Positions 1,336 through 11,433 of a stretch of DNA of 64,000 nt are shown piece after piece. The position numbers and the translations under genes were made by a program. A model generated the notes under the pieces. That model did no database searches and had not been told where the DNA came from. It saw only the letters and a list, made by a program, of their open reading frames with translations. Source of the DNA: Idiomarina piscisalsi (GTDB lineage: Bacteria; Pseudomonadota; Gammaproteobacteria; Enterobacterales; Alteromonadaceae); NCBI RefSeq assembly GCF_002211765.1, contig NZ_CP022133.1, positions 1,612,001-1,676,000 on the forward strand, written 5' to 3'. Each line of letters opens with the position of its first letter. Positions within the stretch are counted from its first letter, which is position 1.

Positions 1336-2601
1336 TCAGCCAATTCGAAAGTCTGAATGCAATTCGCGCCAATGCTCTTTGAGCACCTGTTTACTGGACT
1401 CCAGCATAGGTAACTCATTGAGCATTGTTGGCCACAACTCTCTTGCTTGCTCCATAGTTTCACTTAAGTGAACCGCTATAGGTTGCCATGGTACATCCGC
1501 TCGCTCAGCCCACTTTTTAAAGGTCTCCATATTGGTTTCATACCAATTTTTAACTTTCGCCATATTGAGCGCTGCCCCGTTTTCACCTTTCACATAAGGC
1601 AAGGTGGACACAATATCGTACGCCGGTGATAGCTGAGGCGTTATTCCGTCTGGGTATATCAACGACCAGTTCTTAAGATGCGCATCACCATTTGCAAGTA
1701 GAATATTTACCAACAAACGCTTCGCCATTTTCTGGGCATTCTTTAAGCCTTGCGGACTGTGCAGGTAAATAGCGTTAACGATTTGCTCGTAGTTTTTCTT
1801 CTCATATTTCTCATGAGAATACAGCTCAAACACCTGAGCAAAGTCTTCGGTATGTATTCGTTTACCTTTACTGCGATCAAACCGTCGTATCGCATAGGCA
1901 TATTCTTCATCGGGTAGCCGAATGTCTGGTAGGTTATGCAACTGAGTCAGTTTCACTAACTGTATTTCCGGTATGTCGATACCCACTGACTCGGCTAAGC
2001 GCATGGCTGTGTATTCGTTTGCCGGCACTTGCTTATAAACATTAGACGGTACTTTGATAATCCAGCTGTCAGAGTTATCTTCTTCATTGATATTAAAACG
2101 CTTGTCAGGAGCCCTTACCGACGAAAACTTCATTTGAATGCCTGCTAGTGACTGCTTGCTTACGGCTTTGTCGATATTAACCTGTACAGCTTCTACTTGC
2201 TCTCTATGGGCAAGTGCCCAAGCCGGTAGCTCTCCCGCAGCGATGGGAGTCGCTTTAAGTGCGCCCGGAAGGTTCGCACCTAAATGAACCATAAGCGGAA
2301 ACTCATTTTCCGAGTGGACTTTCAGTTCGCGACTTATAAATTCTCGTAAAGCGCCTTCGGGTAGCAAGTTTGACAATACTGGTGACAAGCGTTGAGTGCT
2401 CACCTGAGGGAGCTCAAAATAGTTCTCACGTATTAGTTGAGTGAAACTAACTATTGGACGGTCACGTTTATCGAGCACGGCAAAGTCAGGAGAAAAACTA
2501 AGAATGTTTTTCCCTCCTGTGTAATGCGTCAACACACCGACTTTTTGATCATTCAGTGTTATTTGAAGCCCTTCGACTTTTTCTACTCTCATGCTCGCCA
2601 T
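1336..2601 (-). CDS. hipA: HipA-type serine/threonine kinase toxin
   Basis: This is a 421-residue HipA family kinase. It has the N-terminal couple_hipA-like subdomain, a SLAGIQMKFS stretch near residues 152-161 (region of the regulatory phospho-serine loop), the catalytic NGDAHLKNWS near residues 304-312 and the metal-binding PAYDIV after it. HipA of E. coli phosphorylates glutamyl-tRNA synthetase and causes persistence; the target here is unknown. It lies 6 bases downstream of hipB, so it is an antitoxin-toxin operon. An alternative ATG at 2592 exists. It is the first gene of the island after smpB. Confidence 0.92.
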   Translation of the reverse strand: MASMRVEKVEGLQITLNDQKVGVLTHYTGGKNILSFSPDFAVLDKRDRPIVSFTQLIRENYFELPQVSTQRLSPVLSNLLPEGALREFISRELKVHSENEFPLMVHLGANLPGALKATPIAAGELPAWALAHREQVEAVQVNIDKAVSKQSLAGIQMKFSSVRAPDKRFNINEEDNSDSWIIKVPSNVYKQVPANEYTAMRLAESVGIDIPEIQLVKLTQLHNLPDIRLPDEEYAYAIRRFDRSKGKRIHTEDFAQVFELYSHEKYEKKNYEQIVNAIYLHSPQGLKNAQKMAKRLLVNILLANGDAHLKNWSLIYPDGITPQLSPAYDIVSTLPYVKGENGAALNMAKVKNWYETNMETFKKWAERADVPWQPIAVHLSETMEQARELWPTMLNELPMLESSKQVLKEHWRELHSDFRIG

Positions 2602-2607
2602 TGGCGA

Positions 2608-2889
2608 TTAGTCCTCTAAATGCTTTTGATATTTGTCCCAAGAGTCATACTCGTTATAAACGGTTTCCGGCTCTCTAACTTCTACTAAATTAGCGTCTTT
2701 AAACTCCAGCTCTAACTCTAACCCGGCCAATATGCGCAACAGAGTCGACAGTCGAATATCTTGCCCTGCCTCCACCCGTTGATACTGCTGCTGGGACATA
2801 CCAATAAGCAGGCGCATGTCTTTTTGAGACAAGTTCCTTCTTTTTCGCTCTTCAACGAGTTTTTCTGAAATAGCCTTTAACGTTTTCAT
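2608..2889 (-). CDS. hipB: HipB-type antitoxin, HTH repressor
   Basis: The 93-residue protein has a Cro/C1-type helix-turn-helix at about residues 20-45 (LSQKDMRLLIGMSQQQYQRV). It is encoded just upstream of the HipA kinase. In known pairs, HipB binds HipA and represses the operon by binding inverted repeats over the promoter. Here an 11-bp inverted repeat starts 4 bp before the start codon and covers the Shine-Dalgarno region, consistent with autorepression. The C-terminus is longer and more acidic than E. coli HipB. Confidence 0.88.
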   Translation of the reverse strand: MKTLKAISEKLVEERKRRNLSQKDMRLLIGMSQQQYQRVEAGQDIRLSTLLRILAGLELELEFKDANLVEVREPETVYNEYDSWDKYQKHLED

Positions 2890-2960: not shown

Positions 2961-2970
2961 TTTGCACTTA

Positions 2971-3176
2971 GCATTAAAAGTCGTGAAAGCTATTTACTGA
3001 GTGCGGATAAATAACTAGTGAACCAGGTGTCTTCGCCAGTGCAGCGCAAGCCCAAAAACAGCCCGGGTTCGCTATCAAAAAGTCACGAATTAAACAAGAT
3101 GATTGCAATCAACACCGTTAAAGAAGATAAATTACAACGCCAAAAGCACCTCATAATTGAGCATTTAATGCGTTAA
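2971..3176 (+). pseudogene. Decayed duplicate of the smpB 3' end
   Basis: The DNA aligns with the 3' part of smpB (about 993-1307). GAAAGCTATTTACTG here matches GAAGCCTATTTACTG in smpB, followed by a nearly matching AACCAGGTGTCTTC stretch. After a deletion of roughly 100 bases comes a frame reading KSHELNK..., NTVKEDKLQRQK, ...EHLMR and a stop. This parallels Smp[19 protein letters not shown]...KHSVR. The fragment has an in-frame stop near its start and no start codon. It marks the far side of the hipBA segment and suggests insertion at, or duplication of, the smpB end. Confidence 0.8.
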
Positions 3177-3391
3177 TTTAAAGTTATAGGCGAATGTAAC
3201 TCTTTACAGCTATTAAATGGCTCTACACTTACTAATGCATCTACATCTTTGGTTGAACCATCAAGCAAAAAAACATTTCTAACCCTATATGGCTCCTCAT
3301 TAAGCATTAAAACGTCATCTCGAAATGGCACTCTTGAATAAGTTGAGTTCCCTAAAAGCACGTCGTCGGAAATAATTGTAATTGTTGGCAT
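3173..3391 (-). CDS. Small protein of unknown function (72 aa)
   Basis: I do not recognise this protein. It is 72 residues with no membrane segment and alternating hydrophobic strands (MPTITIISDDVLL, YRVRNVFLLDG), which suggests a small beta-rich fold. The start at 3391 has a good ribosome-binding site (AAGGGAGAA) 6 bases upstream, and a possible promoter (TTACAA, 18 bases, TATATC on the minus strand, about 3441-3470) lies before it. Its stop codon overlaps the end of the decayed smpB copy on the other strand. It could be the first or last cargo gene of the cassette cluster. Confidence 0.6.
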   Translation of the reverse strand: MPTITIISDDVLLGNSTYSRVPFRDDVLMLNEEPYRVRNVFLLDGSTKDVDALVSVEPFNSCKELHSPITLN

Positions 3392-3440
3392 ATCTTTTCT
3401 CCCTTAAAACCAATTATTTTATTTCCCTAAGTTTATTGTT

Positions 3441-3470
3441 GATATAGTCCTAATGCTGATGCTTTTGTAA
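3441..3470 (-). promoter_or_regulatory. Possible promoter of the 72-aa gene
   Basis: On the minus strand TTACAA (3470-3465) and TATATC (3446-3441) are separated by 18 bases, about 50 bases before the ATG at 3391. It is identified by sequence match only. Confidence 0.35.
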
Positions 3471-3527
3471 GACATTTGCGTCAGATGGCTCAGACATCCC
3501 CACTGTCTGGTTAGTGCCAGGAGCGGA

Positions 3528-3656
3528 CGTTAACACCGCATTAAGGTGTGAGCAACGCTATCACTAAATCTCAACCATACCGCCGTAAACACAAAACCCA
3601 ACGATGGAATGAAAAATGCCAAGCGTTGGGAATCAGTCTTAAATGCTTTGTTAGGC
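3528..3656 (-). repeat. attC-like integron recombination site (VCR length)
   Basis: Reading the minus strand, the site starts with GCCTAAC (3656-3650, containing the stop codon of the preceding gene) and ends with GTTAACG (3534-3528). Its outer arms pair imperfectly (GCATTTAAG...CAACGC against GCATTAAGG...CAACGC in reverse complement). The inner text (CCCAACGCTTGGCATTTTTC, ...GGTTGAGATTTAGTGATAGC) closely resembles Vibrio-type VCR sites. The length of 129 bp also fits that class. It fills most of the 259-bp gap between the two neighbouring genes. Confidence 0.8.
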
Positions 3657-4724
3657 AAAATCCGCTCGCATTTTAAGGTGGGCAATATATGCCAATGGTA
3701 ATGCTTCCGCTTTTTTCCTCTCAGAGCGAATGCTATTTAAAGCTTGGTATGCTGTGGAAGCAAAGGACAGTCCAGCTCCTGCATAAGCTACTTTATTTCC
3801 AGTTTCAGCAGCTACCATCGCTAATCCCGTCCCGAATAAAGGTGCAATGGAGCCCAACATAATCTTTGACCAGGATGGCTTCATTGCATCGATGATTTCA
3901 TCAGTGTCTTCTTTACAACGCCGAATAAAGTCACTAGTCGCGTCTAATCGATCATCTGCACTTTCTAAGAGTGCAATATAGGCCGTCTCACTTTCGATCT
4001 TCTGTCGCAATCTAGGTAAAAGGTGCCCATGCTCCATCTTAAACTTAGCTAGTAAATCTAAATCAATTTTCCCAGAAGGGGTCGGTAAGATATTGTTTAT
4101 CACTACATCCTGAGCCTTTCGGTGATGGTTAAATCTAGCATCTCGTTGCTGAAACAGGTTGTGACCAAGAAAGTTTGAGTACTTTCTTTCGCTTGTAATA
4201 GGAGCTGCACTTACTGTGTTGAGAGCACCTAAGCATATAGCTAAGTAAGCCATAAACATATTGGCAACTCTGGTATCCACGTTAAACCAAGTCCCATCCA
4301 CTTGGTCGGCTAAGCCCTCTTCTATTAAATACTGGGGGAGTTCTCCCATTTTTTCTACATGGATTCCTGTCATTGGCATCATTTTTTCATGGTGGATACG
4401 AGAGCCAAATTTTTCTGCATGCATTCGTCCAGTATCAAAAACTCCTCGTATAGGCTTATCTCTATACTCCCTAGCCTTAGGCTCTAAATATCTAATAAAA
4501 CTCTGTTCGAACTGAGGAATCTCATATAGGTGTTGTGACGGAAATATTTGTTCAGCTAAATCTCTCTCCAATAAAGCTCTCATGAACGGACTTAGTTGCT
4601 CTGGATTATCAATATGATCCATAGGAACTATTGCGCTCAACTTGTCCCAATAAAGTAAAGTTTTTATTGTCCATTGACTTTCCGGAATCGAAATATAAGG
4701 AAAGTAAAGAGCATTATTTCTCAT
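3651..4724 (-). CDS. Unknown protein of a putative cassette, DUF6236-like
   Basis: The N-terminal region NNALYFPYISIPESQWTIKTLLYWDKLSAIVP resembles a family of uncharacterised proteins (DUF6236-like) found in mobile regions; this match is from memory. The middle is mainly helical and charged. Near the C-terminus there is a glycine/alanine-rich hydrophobic hairpin (SIAPLFGTGLAMVAAETG, VAYAGAGLSFASTAYQAL). The ATG at 4724 is chosen because AAAGGG precedes it; the longer frame from 4757 would translate part of the previous recombination site. The stop codon sits inside the attC-like core, as in integron cassettes. Confidence 0.7.
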   Translation of the reverse strand: MRNNALYFPYISIPESQWTIKTLLYWDKLSAIVPMDHIDNPEQLSPFMRALLERDLAEQIFPSQHLYEIPQFEQSFIRYLEPKAREYRDKPIRGVFDTGRMHAEKFGSRIHHEKMMPMTGIHVEKMGELPQYLIEEGLADQVDGTWFNVDTRVANMFMAYLAICLGALNTVSAAPITSERKYSNFLGHNLFQQRDARFNHHRKAQDVVINNILPTPSGKIDLDLLAKFKMEHGHLLPRLRQKIESETAYIALLESADDRLDATSDFIRRCKEDTDEIIDAMKPSWSKIMLGSIAPLFGTGLAMVAAETGNKVAYAGAGLSFASTAYQALNSIRSERKKAEALPLAYIAHLKMRADFA

Positions 4725-4734
4725 TGTTAACCCT

Positions 4735-4795
4735 TTCTGCCTATCGCGCGCATTCACGCGCCAACACTGCTGGTCGCGTGCGATTTATTGTTAGT
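4735..4795 (-). repeat. Weak attC-like site between two cassette genes
   Basis: On the minus strand the sequence begins CACTAAC, overlapping the stop codon of the upstream gene. It then contains a strong stem (ATCGCACGCG against CGCGTG...CGCGCGAT) around a short loop. The closing GTT core is poor. This is compatible with a short, degenerate attC but could also be a transcription-ending hairpin without a T-run. Confidence 0.4.
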
Positions 4796-5501
4796 GCTCT
4801 GACTCCAGAAATGCATTCGTCGAATCCAAAATACCTCGAATTTTCGATAAATCAATATTAAGCTGGGTCAGCCATTTTTCGTACAAGTCGCCACATTCAG
4901 TAAGCATTCGACGGAGTTCGTCATTCTCGGCTTCAATCATAGCGTTGTACATTCCGTAGTCATCACCAGAGTTTGATAACTCAGCATAGAAAGCCTTAAC
5001 TTTTGCGTCCGAGAAGATCTGAATGGACTTTTCATATAGTTCATCAGAGATTTCTGCCAGATCGTTTGATATCAACATCGGGTGCTCTCGAGTAGCAGCA
5101 TTTATCTTCTCTATGATGTTTGTAAAGTAACTTGGATCGTCATCATGGAACTCGATATACTCAGCATTATCGACGAGTGATTTTCCGATATCCCTTTTTA
5201 AATTAATCAGCTTTTCGTATGCCTCTATTCGTTTGCTAAATAGCTCTTGGTACATTTCCTTAGAGATGGACGTGTAGCTCTCGCTTTTCAGCAACTCAAG
5301 TTTAAAATCGCTCTTAATTGCTTCCATCTGCAGCCTTGCAGTTGATTTAAACTCTGCCAGGTCCCGTTTGTGCCGTGCTACTTCGCCATTAATTATCCGC
5401 TTCGAGCTGATGTGAGCGAGGAACGATGCTAAACCAATAAGTACGGCAGAAACCCCTCCGAAAGGAAGTAATACCTGGTTGATCAAATAACTAAACGTCA
5501 A
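4791..5501 (-). CDS. Membrane-anchored helical protein of unknown function
   Basis: This is a 236-residue protein with one N-terminal membrane segment (VLLPFGGVSAVLIGLASFLAHI, about residues 10-31), followed by a long charged helical region (residues about 35-120) likely to form a coiled coil and an acidic helical C-terminus. No catalytic motif is visible. The only sensible start is TTG at 5501, with AGGAGAG about 8 bases upstream. It lies in the leftward cassette series between two attC-like sequences, so it is probably cassette cargo. The function is unknown. Confidence 0.6.
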   Translation of the reverse strand: MTFSYLINQVLLPFGGVSAVLIGLASFLAHISSKRIINGEVARHKRDLAEFKSTARLQMEAIKSDFKLELLKSESYTSISKEMYQELFSKRIEAYEKLINLKRDIGKSLVDNAEYIEFHDDDPSYFTNIIEKINAATREHPMLISNDLAEISDELYEKSIQIFSDAKVKAFYAELSNSGDDYGMYNAMIEAENDELRRMLTECGDLYEKWLTQLNIDLSKIRGILDSTNAFLESEH

Positions 5502-5537
5502 AGGTGCTCTCCTCTCTTATTAGCACTGAATTGCTTG

Positions 5538-6482
5538 TTAACTGTAATACCATCGATCATCATCATCGTATCCGTTTTCATGACACCACTGTTCAACATC
5601 ATTATCTCTATCAATACTCGTTTCCATACCTGCAAGCTCTAGCTCTTCAAAATCGTCCAACTTCAAGCCGCACGCTTCACAAAGGAATGATTCACATAGA
5701 AAGGTAAGGGATATACCATCCTCATCCGAGGTCTCTTCTGTCTCTCCTGTAAACAAACCACCTTCACCACATATAGGGCACTCTTGCATCATCTGAGTCC
5801 AATCCTCACTGTAATAAAATGTCTCGCCAAACTTCCCACTTTTCACAATTCTCCGAGCGTTATCTAAGGCATTTTTAACTTTCTTTACCTTTTCTTCCTC
5901 GTAAAGTTGTAAAAAGCTTGCGGTTTTCTTCTCTGGCGTAAACGAAAAGTATTTGAAGACACTTAACTCAGAGATTTTTTGAAACAACTTCGTTGAGTGG
6001 TAAGCAATGCTCTCCAGTTCGTACCTTTGAAAGTCAGGAACTGACGCATGCACACTTACATTTCTTATTAAGGATAGCGAGGAGAGAAATCCTTTGTACT
6101 CCTGTTTAACTTCCGGGTAAAAATGAAAGAAAAGAGAACTAGCTTTATCTAGCTCAATGGTTTTGTATGAGAAATACCTAAGGTCATTAATGTAAGAAAG
6201 GGAGTTATGCTCTTTTGTCAAGCTTTCCGGGTAACACAATAACAACTTGGCTTCATCAGGTAAGCCTGCATAAAGCATATAGAGCGACTTATGTGCAATG
6301 ATCGACTTCAGCAATAACTCAACACTTATACACAAATTTCCAATTGCAGGCTGAAAATCAACCCAACCCTTCATTCTAGCGTTATGAAAAGCATCTATGC
6401 CAATTTTGTAATACGACCTCGCACTAGATCTGAGATCCAGTGAAGTTTGACTCTCGAGTTTCTCGACTTCCTTCCTATACAA
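5538..6482 (-). CDS. HEPN-like protein with C-terminal zinc ribbon
   Basis: The first 180 residues are helical and contain RNVSVH at residues 140-145, an R-x4-H motif with a polar residue after the arginine, as in HEPN ribonucleases. Near the C-terminus two CxxC pairs (C235/C238 and C268/C271) form a zinc-ribbon-like element (CPICGEGG...CEACGL). The tail is very acidic (NGYDDDDRW). HEPN proteins are often RNA-cleaving toxins or defence factors; that function is inference here. The start is TTG at 6482 with AGAGGTG ahead. It is a leftward cassette gene directly after an attC-like site. Confidence 0.6.
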   Translation of the reverse strand: MYRKEVEKLESQTSLDLRSSARSYYKIGIDAFHNARMKGWVDFQPAIGNLCISVELLLKSIIAHKSLYMLYAGLPDEAKLLLCYPESLTKEHNSLSYINDLRYFSYKTIELDKASSLFFHFYPEVKQEYKGFLSSLSLIRNVSVHASVPDFQRYELESIAYHSTKLFQKISELSVFKYFSFTPEKKTASFLQLYEEEKVKKVKNALDNARRIVKSGKFGETFYYSEDWTQMMQECPICGEGGLFTGETEETSDEDGISLTFLCESFLCEACGLKLDDFEELELAGMETSIDRDNDVEQWCHENGYDDDDRWYYS

Positions 6483-6500
6483 AAGTCACCTCTTCAAATC

Positions 6501-6614
6501 AGTTAACGCCGCCATATGGGGCATTGTTTATGGAGTGGAGCTTTGGGGTAAAGTAGCGAAGCCACCCCAAAGCGCAGCGAAGTATACGATGTCCCTATAA
6601 TGGCCTGGTTATAC
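6501..6614 (-). repeat. attC-like integron recombination site
   Basis: On the minus strand the site runs from GTATAAC (6614-6608) to GTTAACT (6507-6501), directly after the stop codon of the 143-aa gene. Its two halves form a long imperfect inverted repeat, including CTTTGGGGT against ACCCCAAAG. This is the size and layout of a VCR-type attC. Confidence 0.65.
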
Positions 6615-6618
6615 AGAA

Positions 6619-7050
6619 TTAATTTCTCTGTTGGCTATTTTTTCCGCCTTTTTCAGGTTTGATAGACAAAGACTTAACTAAGGAGTTACATAGTTCCAAC
6701 CGCATGTTCTTAATCGCATTTTTTGGAACACCATTCTTTTCGGCATCTTTGATCAGGCATAATGCTTGCTCAATCTCTTTCGGCAATTCAGAATCTTTGG
6801 AGTAACTTTCTCTAACGGTTGGAATATGCATTACAGACAGGCCTACGATGAGATAGTGCCACAACTTCAAACTCGATAATTTGACCCATTGAATGCCTGT
6901 CCAAACCGGAGCGAACAAAACACCCACGATAACGTAAATCAGGGCGCCAACCACAAAACCCAATGATGTTCTTTTTGGGTGTGTACAAAATAAGATATCA
7001 ATTGCTCTTGATATCCAATCTGACGAAGTATCTTTAAAATCCCTATTCAT
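6619..7050 (-). CDS. Small membrane protein, second gene of a two-gene cassette
   Basis: This 143-residue protein has two hydrophobic segments (LGFVVGALIYVIVGVLFAPVW and LWHYLIVGLSVMHI) and a charged helical C-terminal half. I do not recognise the family. It starts 2 bases after the stop of the upstream gene, with GGAGTC as ribosome-binding site, so the two are coupled and probably work together. An attC-like site follows within 5 bases of its stop. The function is unknown. Confidence 0.6.
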   Translation of the reverse strand: MNRDFKDTSSDWISRAIDILFCTHPKRTSLGFVVGALIYVIVGVLFAPVWTGIQWVKLSSLKLWHYLIVGLSVMHIPTVRESYSKDSELPKEIEQALCLIKDAEKNGVPKNAIKNMRLELCNSLVKSLSIKPEKGGKNSQQRN

Positions 7051-7052
7051 TA

Positions 7053-7652
7053 TCAGACTCCTACCTCTTTGGCATGAGCAGCTACTCCACCTTTACCAAA
7101 GTTATGCGCTTTTTCAATTGTAAACTCATCCAGATCTATCAATTTTCTCGGTCCATCTCCATCATTGAGATCATTGTCCGAAGCTTCACTAATTATATAT
7201 TTAAGGAACTGTCGTATTTCGTATTCACTATTCCCTAAGAATCCGTTACTTACTCTATAAGCGCTTATTGCAATCTTCACCCAAGGTAGCAACAACAAAA
7301 CTAAAGAAACGAAAACAATTATTGAATCTATTGGCTTGTCCGCAAAAATCGAGAAAGACAAATACAGAACCATAAATACAGAAAAAGTTACTGAAACAAA
7401 GTTTGCTTCTTTCATTCTCCGAGCAAACATAATTCCATAAACCGAAGAGTACCGGTCATAAGCTCTTACTGTTTCATCATCTCGATTAACAAGCCTTTTC
7501 GAGATTAATTTCATAAGCTTATCGACTGTCTGGACTAGTCCTGCTTTCGTAGTTATGTAAGAGCTAAATAGCGAAACGAACACCCCTAGTACGGCAGACA
7601 CAACGCTTGCGTGATCTAAAAGTGAAGCAAGTTTATCTAAAATTGATTCCAT
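7053..7652 (-). CDS. Multi-pass membrane protein, first gene of a two-gene cassette
   Basis: This 199-residue protein has hydrophobic segments at about residues 15-35, 88-106 and 110-130. A soluble C-terminal part (residues about 140-199) contains acidic and histidine-bearing stretches (NDLNDGDGPRKLIDLDEF). A strong ribosome-binding site (AAGGAG) precedes the ATG at 7652. It is coupled to the following small membrane protein. The family is not recognised. The pair looks like a self-contained membrane module in the leftward cassette series. Confidence 0.6.
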   Translation of the reverse strand: MESILDKLASLLDHASVVSAVLGVFVSLFSSYITTKAGLVQTVDKLMKLISKRLVNRDDETVRAYDRYSSVYGIMFARRMKEANFVSVTFSVFMVLYLSFSIFADKPIDSIIVFVSLVLLLLPWVKIAISAYRVSNGFLGNSEYEIRQFLKYIISEASDNDLNDGDGPRKLIDLDEFTIEKAHNFGKGGVAAHAKEVGV

Positions 7653-7752
7653 TTAAACTCCTTTTCGAATGTTGATAAATGAATTGATGTATAACATTTG
7701 TATATTGTGCGTGCGCATTTATAACCTCGCCTAATTAATAACTTTCGGTTCA
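7653..7752. other. Short AT-rich region with cassette-end-like motifs
   Basis: On the minus strand GTTATAC (7695-7689) matches the end motif of VCR-type attC sites, and a second GGTTATAA lies at about 7726-7719. It may be the recombination point where the two-gene membrane cassette was joined. A complete attC cannot be drawn. Confidence 0.3.
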
Positions 7753-8049
7753 TAACTTACTGTTAAAGCAACCATTCCTGATTTGAAAGGTTCCGAGTTA
7801 GCAAAGGCAATTTGAGCGTGCTCAGTTACACTCTACCGAGCGCACAATATCCAACCTTTATTTTTGTTATGTCATTGACAGTAAACGACTTAAATACACA
7901 ACACAATAACAAAGCGAGCAATATTTCCGAAGTGAATGTGCCGTGCACCGTTAAGGATACCCACAATTATTAATAACGGGACGGCTAGCCACTAGTTGGA
8001 GCATACTGAGAGCCAGAAGATCCGCTGCTCGCTCTTAGCCGACTGATTT
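7753..8049 (+). repeat. Left arm of a long imperfect inverted repeat
   Basis: This arm aligns in reverse complement with 8941-9234 over nearly its whole length. Well-conserved blocks are CAATTTGAGC, CAGTTACACTCTA, a 21-bp exact match at about 7869-7889 (containing TGTCATTGACAGTAAA) with GACTTAAAT after it, and CACTAGTT at the inner part. Identity by eye is about 75-80% in the outer half and about 60-65% in the inner half. The arm has no convincing reading frame. It lies upstream of the leftward membrane pair and upstream of the enclosed gene. Confidence 0.75.
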
Positions 8050-8141
8050 GCATAAGCAAAAGGCTGAATTTTGCCTTTCTCGATAATGTTCGTGCTGTAC
8101 ACTATGACAATTTCAGTAAAGCGAAGGAATTCTAATAATAT

Positions 8142-8915
8142 ATGAGTTCTATAGATCGTAGCCTTTTGAATCGTCTCCTTGTTCTTTCCGCCGCTATAGC
8201 CGAAATGATCGAGCTAGAAAGCCATATGTTGTCTGAGTTTCGTGAATCTACTCACCAACTAGCAGGCAGGAATGAGTACTTAGCATTTTGGTTGAGAGCT
8301 CAATCATTTTTCGTATCTGCACAGTCCTTAACTGACAGTAAGCAAATCAAGCAATATTATTTAACCAATACCGCTAAGCATTGGCGGTTTGGAATAAAAG
8401 CTCTGCGGCACTTCTTTGCGCACGAGATAGATTTTATTCCCTCGCTTCATACCTCAGTCAGATTTATTCCGGAGGAAAAAGTCTCGATTTCACTCGAAGG
8501 GTTCGTAATCAGAACGGCAGAAGCAGACCTAATATTGAGGAATTGTGTCAAAAATGATTGGCGTCGAGAGTTACGAAAAAAGGAGAAAAACGGAGCTTTA
8601 CCCTTCGGTAAGGTTAAAATGATTTATAAGAAGCATCGCACTACTCAGTTGCGAACTCTAAATGACTGGAGGAGCAGGCCGAACGAGAATGTTGTAGTAA
8701 TCACCGATATCGCTACCAGACATTACTTGATCGCGTATGAGTTACTAAATGCTTTGAAGAGGAGAGAACAAACTCTCGCATCAGAAGTTGCTGAGGAAAC
8801 TGCTGAGTATGATTCAGGTGTTATTCCTCTTAAAGATAAAGTGAAATCCATCGAGGATACAGTCGCTAAAGTCAAAGCTTATCGAGATAATAAATTTAAA
8901 TGGAGTATTAACTAG
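8142..8915 (+). CDS. HEPN-like protein enclosed by inverted repeats
   Basis: This 257-residue, mostly helical and basic protein is of unknown family. KALRHFFAHEID at residues 86-97 contains R-x4-H (R89, H94), the motif of HEPN ribonucleases, in a helical context. The C-terminal third is charged and coiled-coil-like (LKDKVKSIEDTVAKVKAYRDNK). The ATG at 8142 has GAAGGAA upstream. It is the only gene inside the loop of a long inverted repeat and reads away from the leftward genes. It could be an RNA-targeting toxin or defence protein. The motif alone does not prove this. Confidence 0.55.
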   Translation: MSSIDRSLLNRLLVLSAAIAEMIELESHMLSEFRESTHQLAGRNEYLAFWLRAQSFFVSAQSLTDSKQIKQYYLTNTAKHWRFGIKALRHFFAHEIDFIPSLHTSVRFIPEEKVSISLEGFVIRTAEADLILRNCVKNDWRRELRKKEKNGALPFGKVKMIYKKHRTTQLRTLNDWRSRPNENVVVITDIATRHYLIAYELLNALKRREQTLASEVAEETAEYDSGVIPLKDKVKSIEDTVAKVKAYRDNKFKWSIN

Positions 8916-8940
8916 CATTTACTTCCGGCTGAAGTGCGTT

Positions 8941-9234
8941 AAGCCGGTCCGCCATGAGCGAGGAACAGACCTTAGTTTTTTTGCACGAATTTAACTAGTG
9001 AACTTCGCGCCTACCATTAATAACTAAGAGGGACGGGAATCAGGCTCGGCACACTTATCTCTACAATATGGCACGTTTTTTTGTTGTGTTGTGGATTTAA
9101 GTCATTTACTGTCAATGACATAATGGGAAATCAAAATTAGGTATTGTGTGCCCGTTAGAGTGTAACTGTGCTTGCTCAAATTGTTGTAGCTTATTCAGAG
9201 CGTTTCAAGGTTGGAATTTTTTAGCTCAGTAACT
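8941..9234 (-). repeat. Right arm of a long imperfect inverted repeat
   Basis: This is the reverse-complement partner of 7753-8049. It starts 26 bases after the stop codon of the enclosed gene and ends about 85 bases before the HNH-like gene. It fills most of the 403-bp gap between those genes. No protein-coding frame is evident. Like the left arm, it lies upstream of an outward-reading gene, so the arms may be copies of one leader or attachment region placed head to head. Confidence 0.75.
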
Positions 9235-9318
9235 TAAAGCTATTTAACTACCAACTTAACGAATGACAAAGTATGCATGAAAAATATACAAAGGTTAGCA
9301 AGACAAGAGGAGATATGA

Positions 9319-9975
9319 GTGGTGCCTTGTTACTACAGAGGCTGCGATAACGAAGCGGACACAAAGGAACACGTTCCTCCTAAAGCTTTCTTCCCAAAGG
9401 ATCAACGAAATCAGCTTCTTACCGTTCCCTCGTGTAAGTCTCACAATAATTCTAAAACAAACGACGACACTTATGTTCTAGCTCATATCTGCATGAATGC
9501 TTCGCCATCCAATGGCGCGCGTGAAATCTTCACGCAAAAGATACTCCCCCAACTTGGATATAACGAAAGTGTATTTAGAAAAATGCTTTTGAAAGGGTCA
9601 GAGCGCTATGACAACGGCACTGTTCGATACCGTGTTGATGTAGAGCGATTTGATGACTTTTTCACCGCACTTTCAATGGGGATAGTCTACAAGGCGTGTG
9701 ACAATCAACTACCTGAATCCTATTCTATAGCCCACATCTATCATAATTTTAAAGATGATAATGAAACCCCTGAGTACAGAGCTCTAAAAGAGAGTATCAG
9801 TCGTCTCTATTCGGGAACACCGATGCATTTTCTGGATTTTGGCGAGCTAGATGCGCGGAATGAAAAGATATATTCGGTTAAAGTGTTTGGTATGCCAGAG
9901 TTCCGCTCATCAATAACAGTGGATCACCTATTCTTTGGTATTTTCCGGGTAACATCTATGCTGAGTAAGAAATAG
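9319..9975 (+). CDS. HNH-like endonuclease domain protein
   Basis: The first 50 residues have CYYRGCDNEADTKEHVPPKA and VPSCKSHNNSKTNDD. This gives paired cysteines (C4/C9), the EHVPP histidine (H18), C39 and a final H42-N43-N44 cluster, a layout typical of small HNH-type nuclease domains found in defence and mobile genes. The rest (218 residues in total) is unrecognised. The start is GTG at 9319 with AGAGGAGA about 6 bases before it. The gene is followed by a degenerate attC-like site, so it is probably a cassette reading rightward. Nuclease activity is inferred from the motif. Confidence 0.6.
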   Translation: MVPCYYRGCDNEADTKEHVPPKAFFPKDQRNQLLTVPSCKSHNNSKTNDDTYVLAHICMNASPSNGAREIFTQKILPQLGYNESVFRKMLLKGSERYDNGTVRYRVDVERFDDFFTALSMGIVYKACDNQLPESYSIAHIYHNFKDDNETPEYRALKESISRLYSGTPMHFLDFGELDARNEKIYSVKVFGMPEFRSSITVDHLFFGIFRVTSMLSKK

Positions 9976-9993
9976 GGTGCGGATGTTTAACCC

Positions 9994-10066
9994 TGCTAAC
10001 CAGAGAATCAAGCCGACCAATTTTCCGCAGCCGCTCCAAATTGGCGGATCATTCAAGGCGCTAGGC
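9994..10066 (+). repeat. Degenerate attC-like site
   Basis: TGCTAAC (9994-10000) and GCTAGGC (10060-10066) bound a stem-loop with an exact 7-bp inner stem (CCAATTT against AAATTGG) and AAGCCGACC in the left arm. This is the layout of a short attC. The right core has C in place of the second T of GTT, which should weaken or abolish recombination. Confidence 0.6.
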
Positions 10067-10079
10067 TACTGAGGTATCA

Positions 10080-11321
10080 ATGTCAGATAATGAATTCATA
10101 GTAAAAATGCTTGAGGATGCCGCAGAGCTAAGGAAAGGTGTATTTGAATTCCAAGGCTTTGAACGCGAGTTTCTTCTATACCAAGAACAATTACTAAGAG
10201 AATATGAAAAGTCCTCTGGTTTAAAGCATCCGGGAAATCGTGGTGATGCCCGAGAAGATTATCTGCGAAATTTTTTCTCTGCTTATGGCTTGATACCACA
10301 GAAATATGGGATTTCCTCTTCTAGTGGTCGAGTTGTATCAAGTTCTGGTCACCACAGCGAAGAGCTAGATTTATTGTTCTACGACCAATCAAATAGCATT
10401 TCTCTTTTGAAATATCAAAGCTCAGAGTTCTACCCTGTGGAACACGTCCATGGTGTCATTCAAGTAAAATCCTGCTTTAGAAACAAAAAAACAGTTAAAG
10501 ATGGATTAAGAAATATCGCATCATTTAAAAAGCTAAAGAAATCAGGAAAAGCAATACAGAAAATAAACGGCTTAACTATTGAGTCACCCTCGACAAGAGG
10601 GTTCGGAATTTTATTTGCATATAAATCATCACTTAAGTGGTTAACGGTCATAAATGCTATTAAAGAGTTTATGGCTGAAGCGCCAAGTACCGAATGGCCT
10701 AATGCGGTTGTGATTCTAGATGAAGGCCTTATTGTTCCATTTGATGGGAGTCGAGGCTGCTTTCAAACACCTGATATAGATAAGCTGACTTCAACAGAAA
10801 TCATTGGACGTCCAAATAATGGCGACTGTCTGCTCAGTTTCTATTCCATGCTAATGGAAATGCTGGACAATACTACGCTTGGTGGATTTCAGCTTTCTAA
10901 CTACATCAGACTACCTCTTTTATCAGGGGACATTTCTTATAATTTCTCTTATGGCCCATTTGCAGAAGTTGGCAATTGTGAAAAACACGGGCAATACCTT
11001 AGGGAAATATCACAGGAAGCCTTAAAGAAAATTATTGATACTTGTGATGGTCAAGACACTATTAACTGGATCAAGGCGCTTGATATAGCGTACGGCAGAC
11101 CTGATGATAATATTGAGGCATATGAACGTCAGCCTGGTGAAGTACACATATATAACCCAGATGACGAGGAATTAAAGGATATTCTTGTATTTCCAAATGA
11201 GCCACATGGTCTTGCCTATGATTCAGTATCAATCGAAGGCAAAACATACTGGGTACCGTACGCGTATAGCATTAGAGATAACTTAGTTGTAATAGAGTGC
11301 CCAAAATGCAAAAAAGCCTAA
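10080..11321 (+). CDS. DUF6602-like protein with PD-(D/E)xK nuclease-like core
   Basis: The 413-residue protein carries GNRGDAREDYLRNFF (residues 52-66), SEELDLLFYDQ (93-103) and VEHVHGVIQVKS (120-131). This order (E59, D97, Q128-x-K130) resembles the PD-(D/E)xK nuclease core, with Q in place of the usual E/D, and matches what I recall of DUF6602 proteins. The C-terminal half is unrecognised and ends in CPKCKK. The ATG at 10080 has GAGG 7 bases upstream. The stop codon lies in a GCCTAAC motif, as in an integron cassette. A role in restriction of foreign DNA is a guess from family and setting. Confidence 0.6.
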   Translation: MSDNEFIVKMLEDAAELRKGVFEFQGFEREFLLYQEQLLREYEKSSGLKHPGNRGDAREDYLRNFFSAYGLIPQKYGISSSSGRVVSSSGHHSEELDLLFYDQSNSISLLKYQSSEFYPVEHVHGVIQVKSCFRNKKTVKDGLRNIASFKKLKKSGKAIQKINGLTIESPSTRGFGILFAYKSSLKWLTVINAIKEFMAEAPSTEWPNAVVILDEGLIVPFDGSRGCFQTPDIDKLTSTEIIGRPNNGDCLLSFYSMLMEMLDNTTLGGFQLSNYIRLPLLSGDISYNFSYGPFAEVGNCEKHGQYLREISQEALKKIIDTCDGQDTINWIKALDIAYGRPDDNIEAYERQPGEVHIYNPDDEELKDILVFPNEPHGLAYDSVSIEGKTYWVPYAYSIRDNLVVIECPKCKKA

Positions 11322-11352
11322 CAAATCAATTAACTTCGCACCTTCGGCGCCG
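11316..11352 (+). repeat. Truncated attC-like start after the last cassette gene
   Basis: GCCTAAC (11316-11322) overlaps the stop codon and continues AAATCAATTAACTTCGC and a small CCTTCGG loop, like the left half of a short attC. No matching right core follows. This may be the broken right edge of the cassette cluster. Confidence 0.4.
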
Positions 11353-11433
11353 GAGAGCCTAACACGTGCCGGTTATTGAGGCTCCAATGTCCGCTCTTGG
11401 CACTTAACAGCCAGTCATTGGAATATAGAAGCC

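Follow-up and report, generated by a model that had tools for sequence, protein, structure and literature searches.

Head-to-head cassette arrays of Idiomarina piscisalsi headed by putative attI sites of a repeated family without integrase

Clusters of attC sites lacking integron-integrases (CALINs) are well known, as passages of PMC12444791 and PMC9229058 describe, and they resemble in having attC arrays without an integrase gene (intI) the pair of gene cassette arrays studied here in Idiomarina piscisalsi, found in a window (the whole stretch of DNA analyzed, 64 kb) that covers positions 1612001-1676000 of a single-contig genome of 2,587,498 bases. CALINs are, however, defined by attC alone, whereas each array of the window starts at what we read as a recognizable attI, an element of about 350 bp from a repeated family. 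In the Shewanella cryptic prophage M16-3, a CALIN that begins with an attI has been described (in the part of PMC9892861 devoted to it), and the attI printed there resembles the end of the Idiomarina element. That part presents a single case, and the prophage itself contains an intact integrase, whereas the element has one to five matches per positive genome. Delta-attI-type cassettes of class 1 and 2 integrons recombine with IntI1, according to the relevant passages of PMC12901181, and are similar in that attI stretches travel in place of attC. They are described there as mostly 14-18 nt long (one type 244 nt), behind single cassettes and in intI-bearing integrons, in contrast to the whole leaders of about 350 bp that head new arrays in the case of the element. 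The Vibrio chromosomal integron is comparable because one attC of the window is a Vibrio cholerae repeat (VCR), but the arrays of the window differ by their lack of integrase, their tiny size and their mixed attC types. In the open-licence literature on integrons or attI in Idiomarina, and on multiple, orphan or duplicated attI, no paper was found. CALINs, including one with its own attI, are already known; a multi-copy attI family crossing genera was not found in print.

The two arrays and the element at their heads

It is very probable that the window contains two head-to-head cassette arrays, each with its own attI and leader and without integrase, and that these attI sites belong to a repeated family cut loose from intI. 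The family is carried, with several sites in a genome, by Idiomarina, Pseudidiomarina and one more closely related genus. That a dispersed attI family without integrase heads many small arrays is supported by three sets of data given below: no native full-length intI was found in the genus, a pattern from the element gave 56 matches, and the tree of its copies ignores genus. Apparently, the element is a repeated, travelling sequence in related bacteria. The sites on which this reading is built are listed below. To score the attC sites, 30 attC from arrays in other genomes, none of them from this one, served to train a covariance model (R1), which was run over the window with filters off; the nhmmer scores come from a profile in which both elements of the window are themselves rows.

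7690-8046, minus strand: putative orphan attI element of the left array, core GTTA at 7695-7692, reading leftward (nhmmer 368.6 bits, E 7.4e-111)
8947-9298, plus strand: putative orphan attI element of the right array, second subfamily, core GTTA at 9294-9297, reading rightward (nhmmer 277.3 bits, E 4.2e-83)
6501-6614, minus strand: attC (R1 42.2 bits, E 2.3e-07), directly behind the 143-amino acid open reading frame (ORF) 6619-7050
3528-3656, minus strand: attC, Vibrio-type VCR (R1 28.2 bits, E 0.00037)
9994-10066, plus strand: borderline attC (R1 21.2 bits, E 0.016)
11323-11382, plus strand: degenerate attC-like end of the right array, not significant (R1 12 bits, E 1.9)

The original prediction had named five attC-like sites, in two groups running in opposite directions. 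The model recovered clearly those at 6501-6614 and 3528-3656 and, at a borderline level, that at 9994, but the site at 4795 gave no match in the window at E up to 10 and that at 11316 was not significant (E 1.9); the remaining 64 kb gave no further match better than E 1.9. As a positive control, R1 was run on 28 loci that surround integron integrases in the family, all outside the training set, where 17 loci gave 33 matches in total, and as a negative control it found 0 matches at E up to 1 (default filters) in the smpB-queE intervals of 18 relatives, 211 kb in all. The resemblance of 3528-3656 to Vibrio VCRs was borne out by 87-95% identity to VCR-like places in Vibrio plasmids, among the matches listed, in which up to at least 40 such places per plasmid record were seen. 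The opposite directions were also seen, with genes and sites of the left group on the minus strand and those of the right group on the plus strand, and in both arrays the attC sites point in a single orientation away from attI, the right array having for this a single borderline site. The left array contains two nearby attC without intI (6501-6614 and 3528-3656), as in a CALIN; the right array alone contains one borderline attC.

The two elements form an inverted repeat at the heads of both arrays; they are non-coding, each ends in a core GTTR, and they share 76% identity over the best-aligning 165 bases. Copies were detected by BLAST throughout the genus and across three genera, and a search of the named genome collection for an exact 25-base piece gave 21 stretches, every one from Idiomarina or Pseudidiomarina. 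Among 295 sampled genomes of the family the element was found in 31, of which 29 belong to the three genera; the other two matched only marginally, at E 3e-4 and 8e-4. When 40 selected genomes (19 from this genus, 18 from the two sister genera and 3 from outside) were searched with a 30-base pattern allowing at most three mismatches, 56 matches were obtained. They fall in 28 genomes, from one to five in each, and the reversed pattern, used as control, gave 0 matches in the same 40. The relative G003 has no element by either BLAST or the 30-base pattern. No match was found in plasmids or phages, nor in viral contigs by one pattern without mismatches. The reading of the element as a long attC, based on a 10-bp inverted repeat (ATATTGTGCG/CGCACAATAT), was dropped, as the arms are lost, by eye, in the right copy, and homologues adjoin intI.

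Five copies are present in the genome of the window, two of them being those of the arrays. A third one, at 1415284, does not have the core GTTA and is directly followed by an IS110-family transposase gene (L183 5515-6540; genome 1414014-1415039), which may have targeted the integron site. The other two are truncated and lie in a duplicated stretch whose two copies are 99.99% identical over at least 11,864 bp (L180 and L181; genome about 1395.9-1407.8 kb and 2175.6-2187.5 kb), where the truncated attI copy is accompanied by attC cassettes and by phage-integrase-type genes. We take this duplicated stretch to resemble Tn554, and it is a possible vehicle for attI.

Likeness to attI and exchange of cassettes

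On sequence grounds, we read the element as an attI because one copy adjoins an intI remnant, native attI sites are alike, conservation stops at the core, and a cassette is common to an orphan and a native attI. The consensus CGCACGCACAATATACAAATGTTA is followed by unrelated sequence in 52 distinct copies, in such a way that identity is 87% at the core G and 94-100% over TTA, and at most 54% at each of the next 20 bases. In genome G011, a copy adjoins a damaged integron integrase in divergent orientation, the element starting around 107 bases from the nearest aligned residue; this remnant shows 48% identity to the IntI of G015 over 128 residues (tblastn). The same kind of search with IntI over the element loci covered gave no integrase remnant outside G011. 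Native attI sites beside complete or broken intI matched, though weakly, positions 162-354 of the element profile, at the right place and in the right orientation, at seven loci from sister genera and I. loihiensis SN11 (L157, L158, L164, L165, L236, L238 and L241), where they end in ...ACAAATGTTA. By homology and by the cassette junctions, an attI site thus adjoins the array.

Behind the G011 element (L087 11697-15795) there are two long genes that we read from their sequences as a Gabija-like pair, which would make a defence system the first cassette behind attI.

The orientation of the attC sites was counted around the copies, taking rows with E below 0.01, entered by hand, without repeats and without element-free loci. 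Within 4 kb downstream of 54 copies, the attC shares the strand of the copy in 86 attC-copy pairs and is opposite to it in 0, a count that includes the 30 training sites, which had been picked on that strand. When the training sites were left out, 57 distinct attC rows remained in the same orientation as the copy and 0 in the reverse one. Within 4 kb upstream the corresponding numbers were 11 and 6. In the counts both with and without the training sites, three attC rows and one element copy are counted twice, L215 and L247 being the same P. marina stretch. At least 2.5 kb of room was available for 47 copies, and in 34 of these an attC lies within 4 kb downstream.

The exchange of cassettes was searched with the 52 copies and 8 native sites as queries. 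The orphan attI of P. atlantica and the native attI of G189, which adjoins a full integrase, have a common first cassette (97.8% over 582 bp), which starts where the shared core ends and reaches to 5 nt or less from the attC G|TT. Likewise, P. marina and I. loihiensis SN11 have a common orphan attI (97.1% over 348 bp) and a common cassette (99.3% over 607 bp) limited by GTTA and the attC GTT, which is the first at attI in one of them and stands behind 1.75 kb of other cassettes in the other; P. marina has no integrase match at 1e-25. Beyond these two pairs, the search gave only one case between near-identical copies and one native-native pair. The positions of these junctions indicate that cassettes move at these attI sites.

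Integrases, spread and alternative explanations

In agreement with the original prediction, the window has no integrase, tblastn with IntI giving none there, and the whole genome has likewise no match over the integron-integrase cut-off, the best partial one reaching 72.6 bits; the intI of a complete integron is therefore lacking in this genome. An integron integrase over the cut-off is present in 214 of the 295 sampled genomes of the family versus 1 of 19 in this genus, and no native full-length intI was found in these 19. The sole one over the cut-off (G015), next to attI1, is presumably of class 1, and it was dropped as a native integrase for that reading; intI1 with attI1 is absent from the window and was read only in G015 among the 19. 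Of the 15 named genomes with the element, five have an integrase match at 1e-25. Four of these matches pass the cut-off, one of them only when taken together with its neighbours in frame, and the fifth falls below it. The integrase of P. atlantica is full-length, whereas at least three of the five matches are to damaged or partial genes. An integrase is therefore at hand in some carriers. By contrast, 22 of the 28 pattern-positive genomes are without integrase match at 1e-25, assuming that both genome samplings are identical. In I. loihiensis SN11, two damaged integron integrases lie around 0.7 Mb apart (L238 and L241), each beside its own attI-like site.

A tree built from 44 full-length copies shows 14 changes of genus label, close to the mean of 15.7 for shuffled labels (40 of 200 shuffles were as low), and a single clade for the 18 Pseudidiomarina copies is rejected (approximately unbiased test, p-AU 1.2e-38); the details of this tree are unsure, since only 10 of its 41 inner branches are starred. 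These data bear on an ordinary decay, in which intI was lost and the arrays were broken up by chromosome rearrangement with no mobility of attI. The broken intI of G011 and the two damaged ones of I. loihiensis SN11 agree with such a decay, as does the frequent neighbourhood of copies, but the tree speaks against it and so does P. atlantica, where intI, native attI, one cassette and the array-end motif are followed by a copy of the element, just behind an intact native integron; we consider decay alone rather unlikely. The original prediction left the choice between two cassette clusters joined head to head and one cluster inverted. The opposite directions and the inverted repeat between the halves would suit a single array with its left half inverted, but the two copies of the window lie on opposite sides of a starred branch (31 versus 13 rows), each closer to copies in other genomes, so that each cluster has its own attI-type site of a different supported subfamily. 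An origin from one array cut and inverted is therefore very unlikely, and the joining of two clusters is the alternative that the data support.

That the 350-bp repeat is just a conserved promoter or leader of defence genes, with no recombination site, would fit the ORF in the same direction behind 29 mapped copies and the defence-like look of some of these genes. It is nonetheless highly improbable, as identity stops at GTTA in 52 copies, a copy and homologues lie between intI and the array, and cassettes are exchanged at the core. Mobilization of the platforms by a REP-associated (repetitive extragenic palindrome; Y1) transposase acting on the bounding hairpins was also considered, since hairpins with the stem GTCCGCT/AGCGGAC are found on both sides of the platform. 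The genome of the window has no Y1 transposase match, and the motif is absent from the 3.1-3.3 kb around each of the 14 Y1 loci detected in the genus, which makes this extremely improbable; mobilization of the REP/RAYT (REP-associated tyrosine transposase) kind, in which a Y1 transposase comes with cognate repeats, was rejected.

Several data weigh against the reading of two arrays headed by a dispersed attI family. The right array has only one borderline attC, and two of the five named sites fail; the native attI sites match the element profile weakly (7-13 bits), and four more of them (L159-L162) are alike, by eye, only in the core. Moreover, an attC within 4 kb is missing for 13 of the 47 copies that have room for one, and there is no excess of promoters in the leader (4 found versus 3.9 expected from shuffles).

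Of 103 distinct attC sites, 13, including the left one of the window, run directly into a GTTAAyGTCCGCTnnTGGCAC-type sequence, as scored with a loose pattern that matches 2.9% of all GTT. A hairpin with the same stem lies at the left border of the element. As this array-end motif is also found away from arrays, it is a general intergenic repeat. In the genome of the window, a 6.8-kb block of mostly minus-strand genes lies between outward-facing hairpin motifs at 580958 (minus) and 587812 (plus), between gcvP- and hipBA-like genes and with no attI or attC matches; surroundings like those of this block, judged by ORF lengths, carry attI copies in some relatives. Of the 12 neighbouring pairs of elements among the loci examined, none is convergent; 7 are tandem, partial copies taking part in some of them, and 5 are divergent with gaps of 0.8-11 kb, so that the divergent order of the window is of a recurrent kind. 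The ORFs between four of the five divergent pairs are unrelated in blastp, the 257-amino acid ORF of the window having no match to the other three.

For the two-array reading, the cassettes would have been inserted singly by an integron integrase, either before the loss of intI or in trans from an integron elsewhere, and the first cassettes may be expressed from a promoter in the leader. The head-to-head order would most likely come from the joining of two oppositely oriented platforms, in which the bounding hairpin repeats (GTCCGCT...AGCGGAC) may have recombined, although it may also derive from a former tandem pair with one member inverted. In the genome of the window the arrays would now be fixed unless an integrase arrives. 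We also entertain, tentatively and as something short of probable, that attI itself is mobile, a hairpin-bounded unit of about 350 bp with attI and leader that multiplies, crosses genera and seeds arrays, needing an integrase in trans. Its passage could take place as an attI-type cassette or by recombination at the bounding repeats. An integrase moving the stretch between two attI cores is plausible because delta-attI cassettes recombine with IntI1 (in the passages of PMC12901181 cited above), and such movement may have produced the element family.

Genes of the arrays, flanks and significance

The genes and ends of the two arrays, and the region that they occupy, are the following:

2963-11433, no strand: stretch in place of the tad pilus locus of relatives (identity limits and comparison with relatives)
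3514-3527, minus strand: conserved right end of the left array, TCCGCTCCTGGCAC (pattern), directly behind the attC GTTAACG
3651-4757, minus strand: cassette gene, 368 amino acids, DUF6236 (Pfam PF19749, 28.1 bits versus a cut-off of 26.2)
4791-5501, minus strand: cassette gene (ORF), 236 amino acids; putative attC at 4795 without model support
5538-6482, minus strand: cassette gene, 314 amino acids, sub-threshold Pfam matches only; no attC found behind
6619-7050, minus strand: second ORF of the first left cassette, 143 amino acids
7053-7652, minus strand: first gene of the left array, 199 amino acids, ORF 40 bp after the core; membrane protein by eye, no Pfam match
8142-8915, plus strand: ORF between the two attI elements, 257 amino acids
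9319-9975, plus strand: first gene of the right array, 218 amino acids, HNH-nuclease-like by eye (weak PADLOC PtuB match, E 0.01 only)
10080-11321, plus strand: cassette gene, 413 amino acids, DUF6602/PD-(D/E)xK nuclease-like (Pfam PF20247, 76.8 bits)
11390-11403, plus strand: conserved right-end motif TCCGCTCTTGGCAC behind the right array (pattern)

The ORFs 7053-7652 and 6619-7050 probably share one cassette. The product of 10080-11321 matched PD_DExK (1.7e-25) and NucC (4.4e-21) in PADLOC.

The 94% identity of the window to the relatives G002 and G003 ends near 2963 and restarts at 11433. In G003 the corresponding interval codes for TadA/TadB/TadC/RcpA/CpaB-like proteins, by our own reading of the translations, and all 17 other relatives match that interval at least in the TadA-like part. 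Only the edges of this locus remain in the genome of the window, so by comparison of sequences the pair of arrays stands where the 18 relatives have a tad pilus locus. A hipBA-like pair (1336-2889, minus strand) adjoins the arrays, and it is found in the same place in G002 and G003 at 94%, with more distant matches elsewhere in some other relatives. Between this pair and the left array there is a degenerate C-terminal fragment of smpB (2990-3175, plus strand; tblastn E 1e-7) whose alignment includes a stop and a large gap, as if it were the border of an old duplication or insertion. An island at a transfer-messenger RNA (tmRNA) site was considered and dropped, as no tmRNA is present in the window or in the intervals of 9 of the 18 relatives.

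Integrons are counted by intI and attC. One study looked for attI of classes 1-3 only, in the part of PMC7923331 that concerns this search, and arrays headed by another attI would therefore look like headless CALINs. An attI that can be traced as a family may tell how CALINs arise, and it reveals several putative landing sites in one chromosome. The same attI with different first cassettes provides natural pairs for the question of integrases acting in trans between strains. If attI is itself mobile, a single chromosome would have several cassette-collecting stations and no collector of its own.

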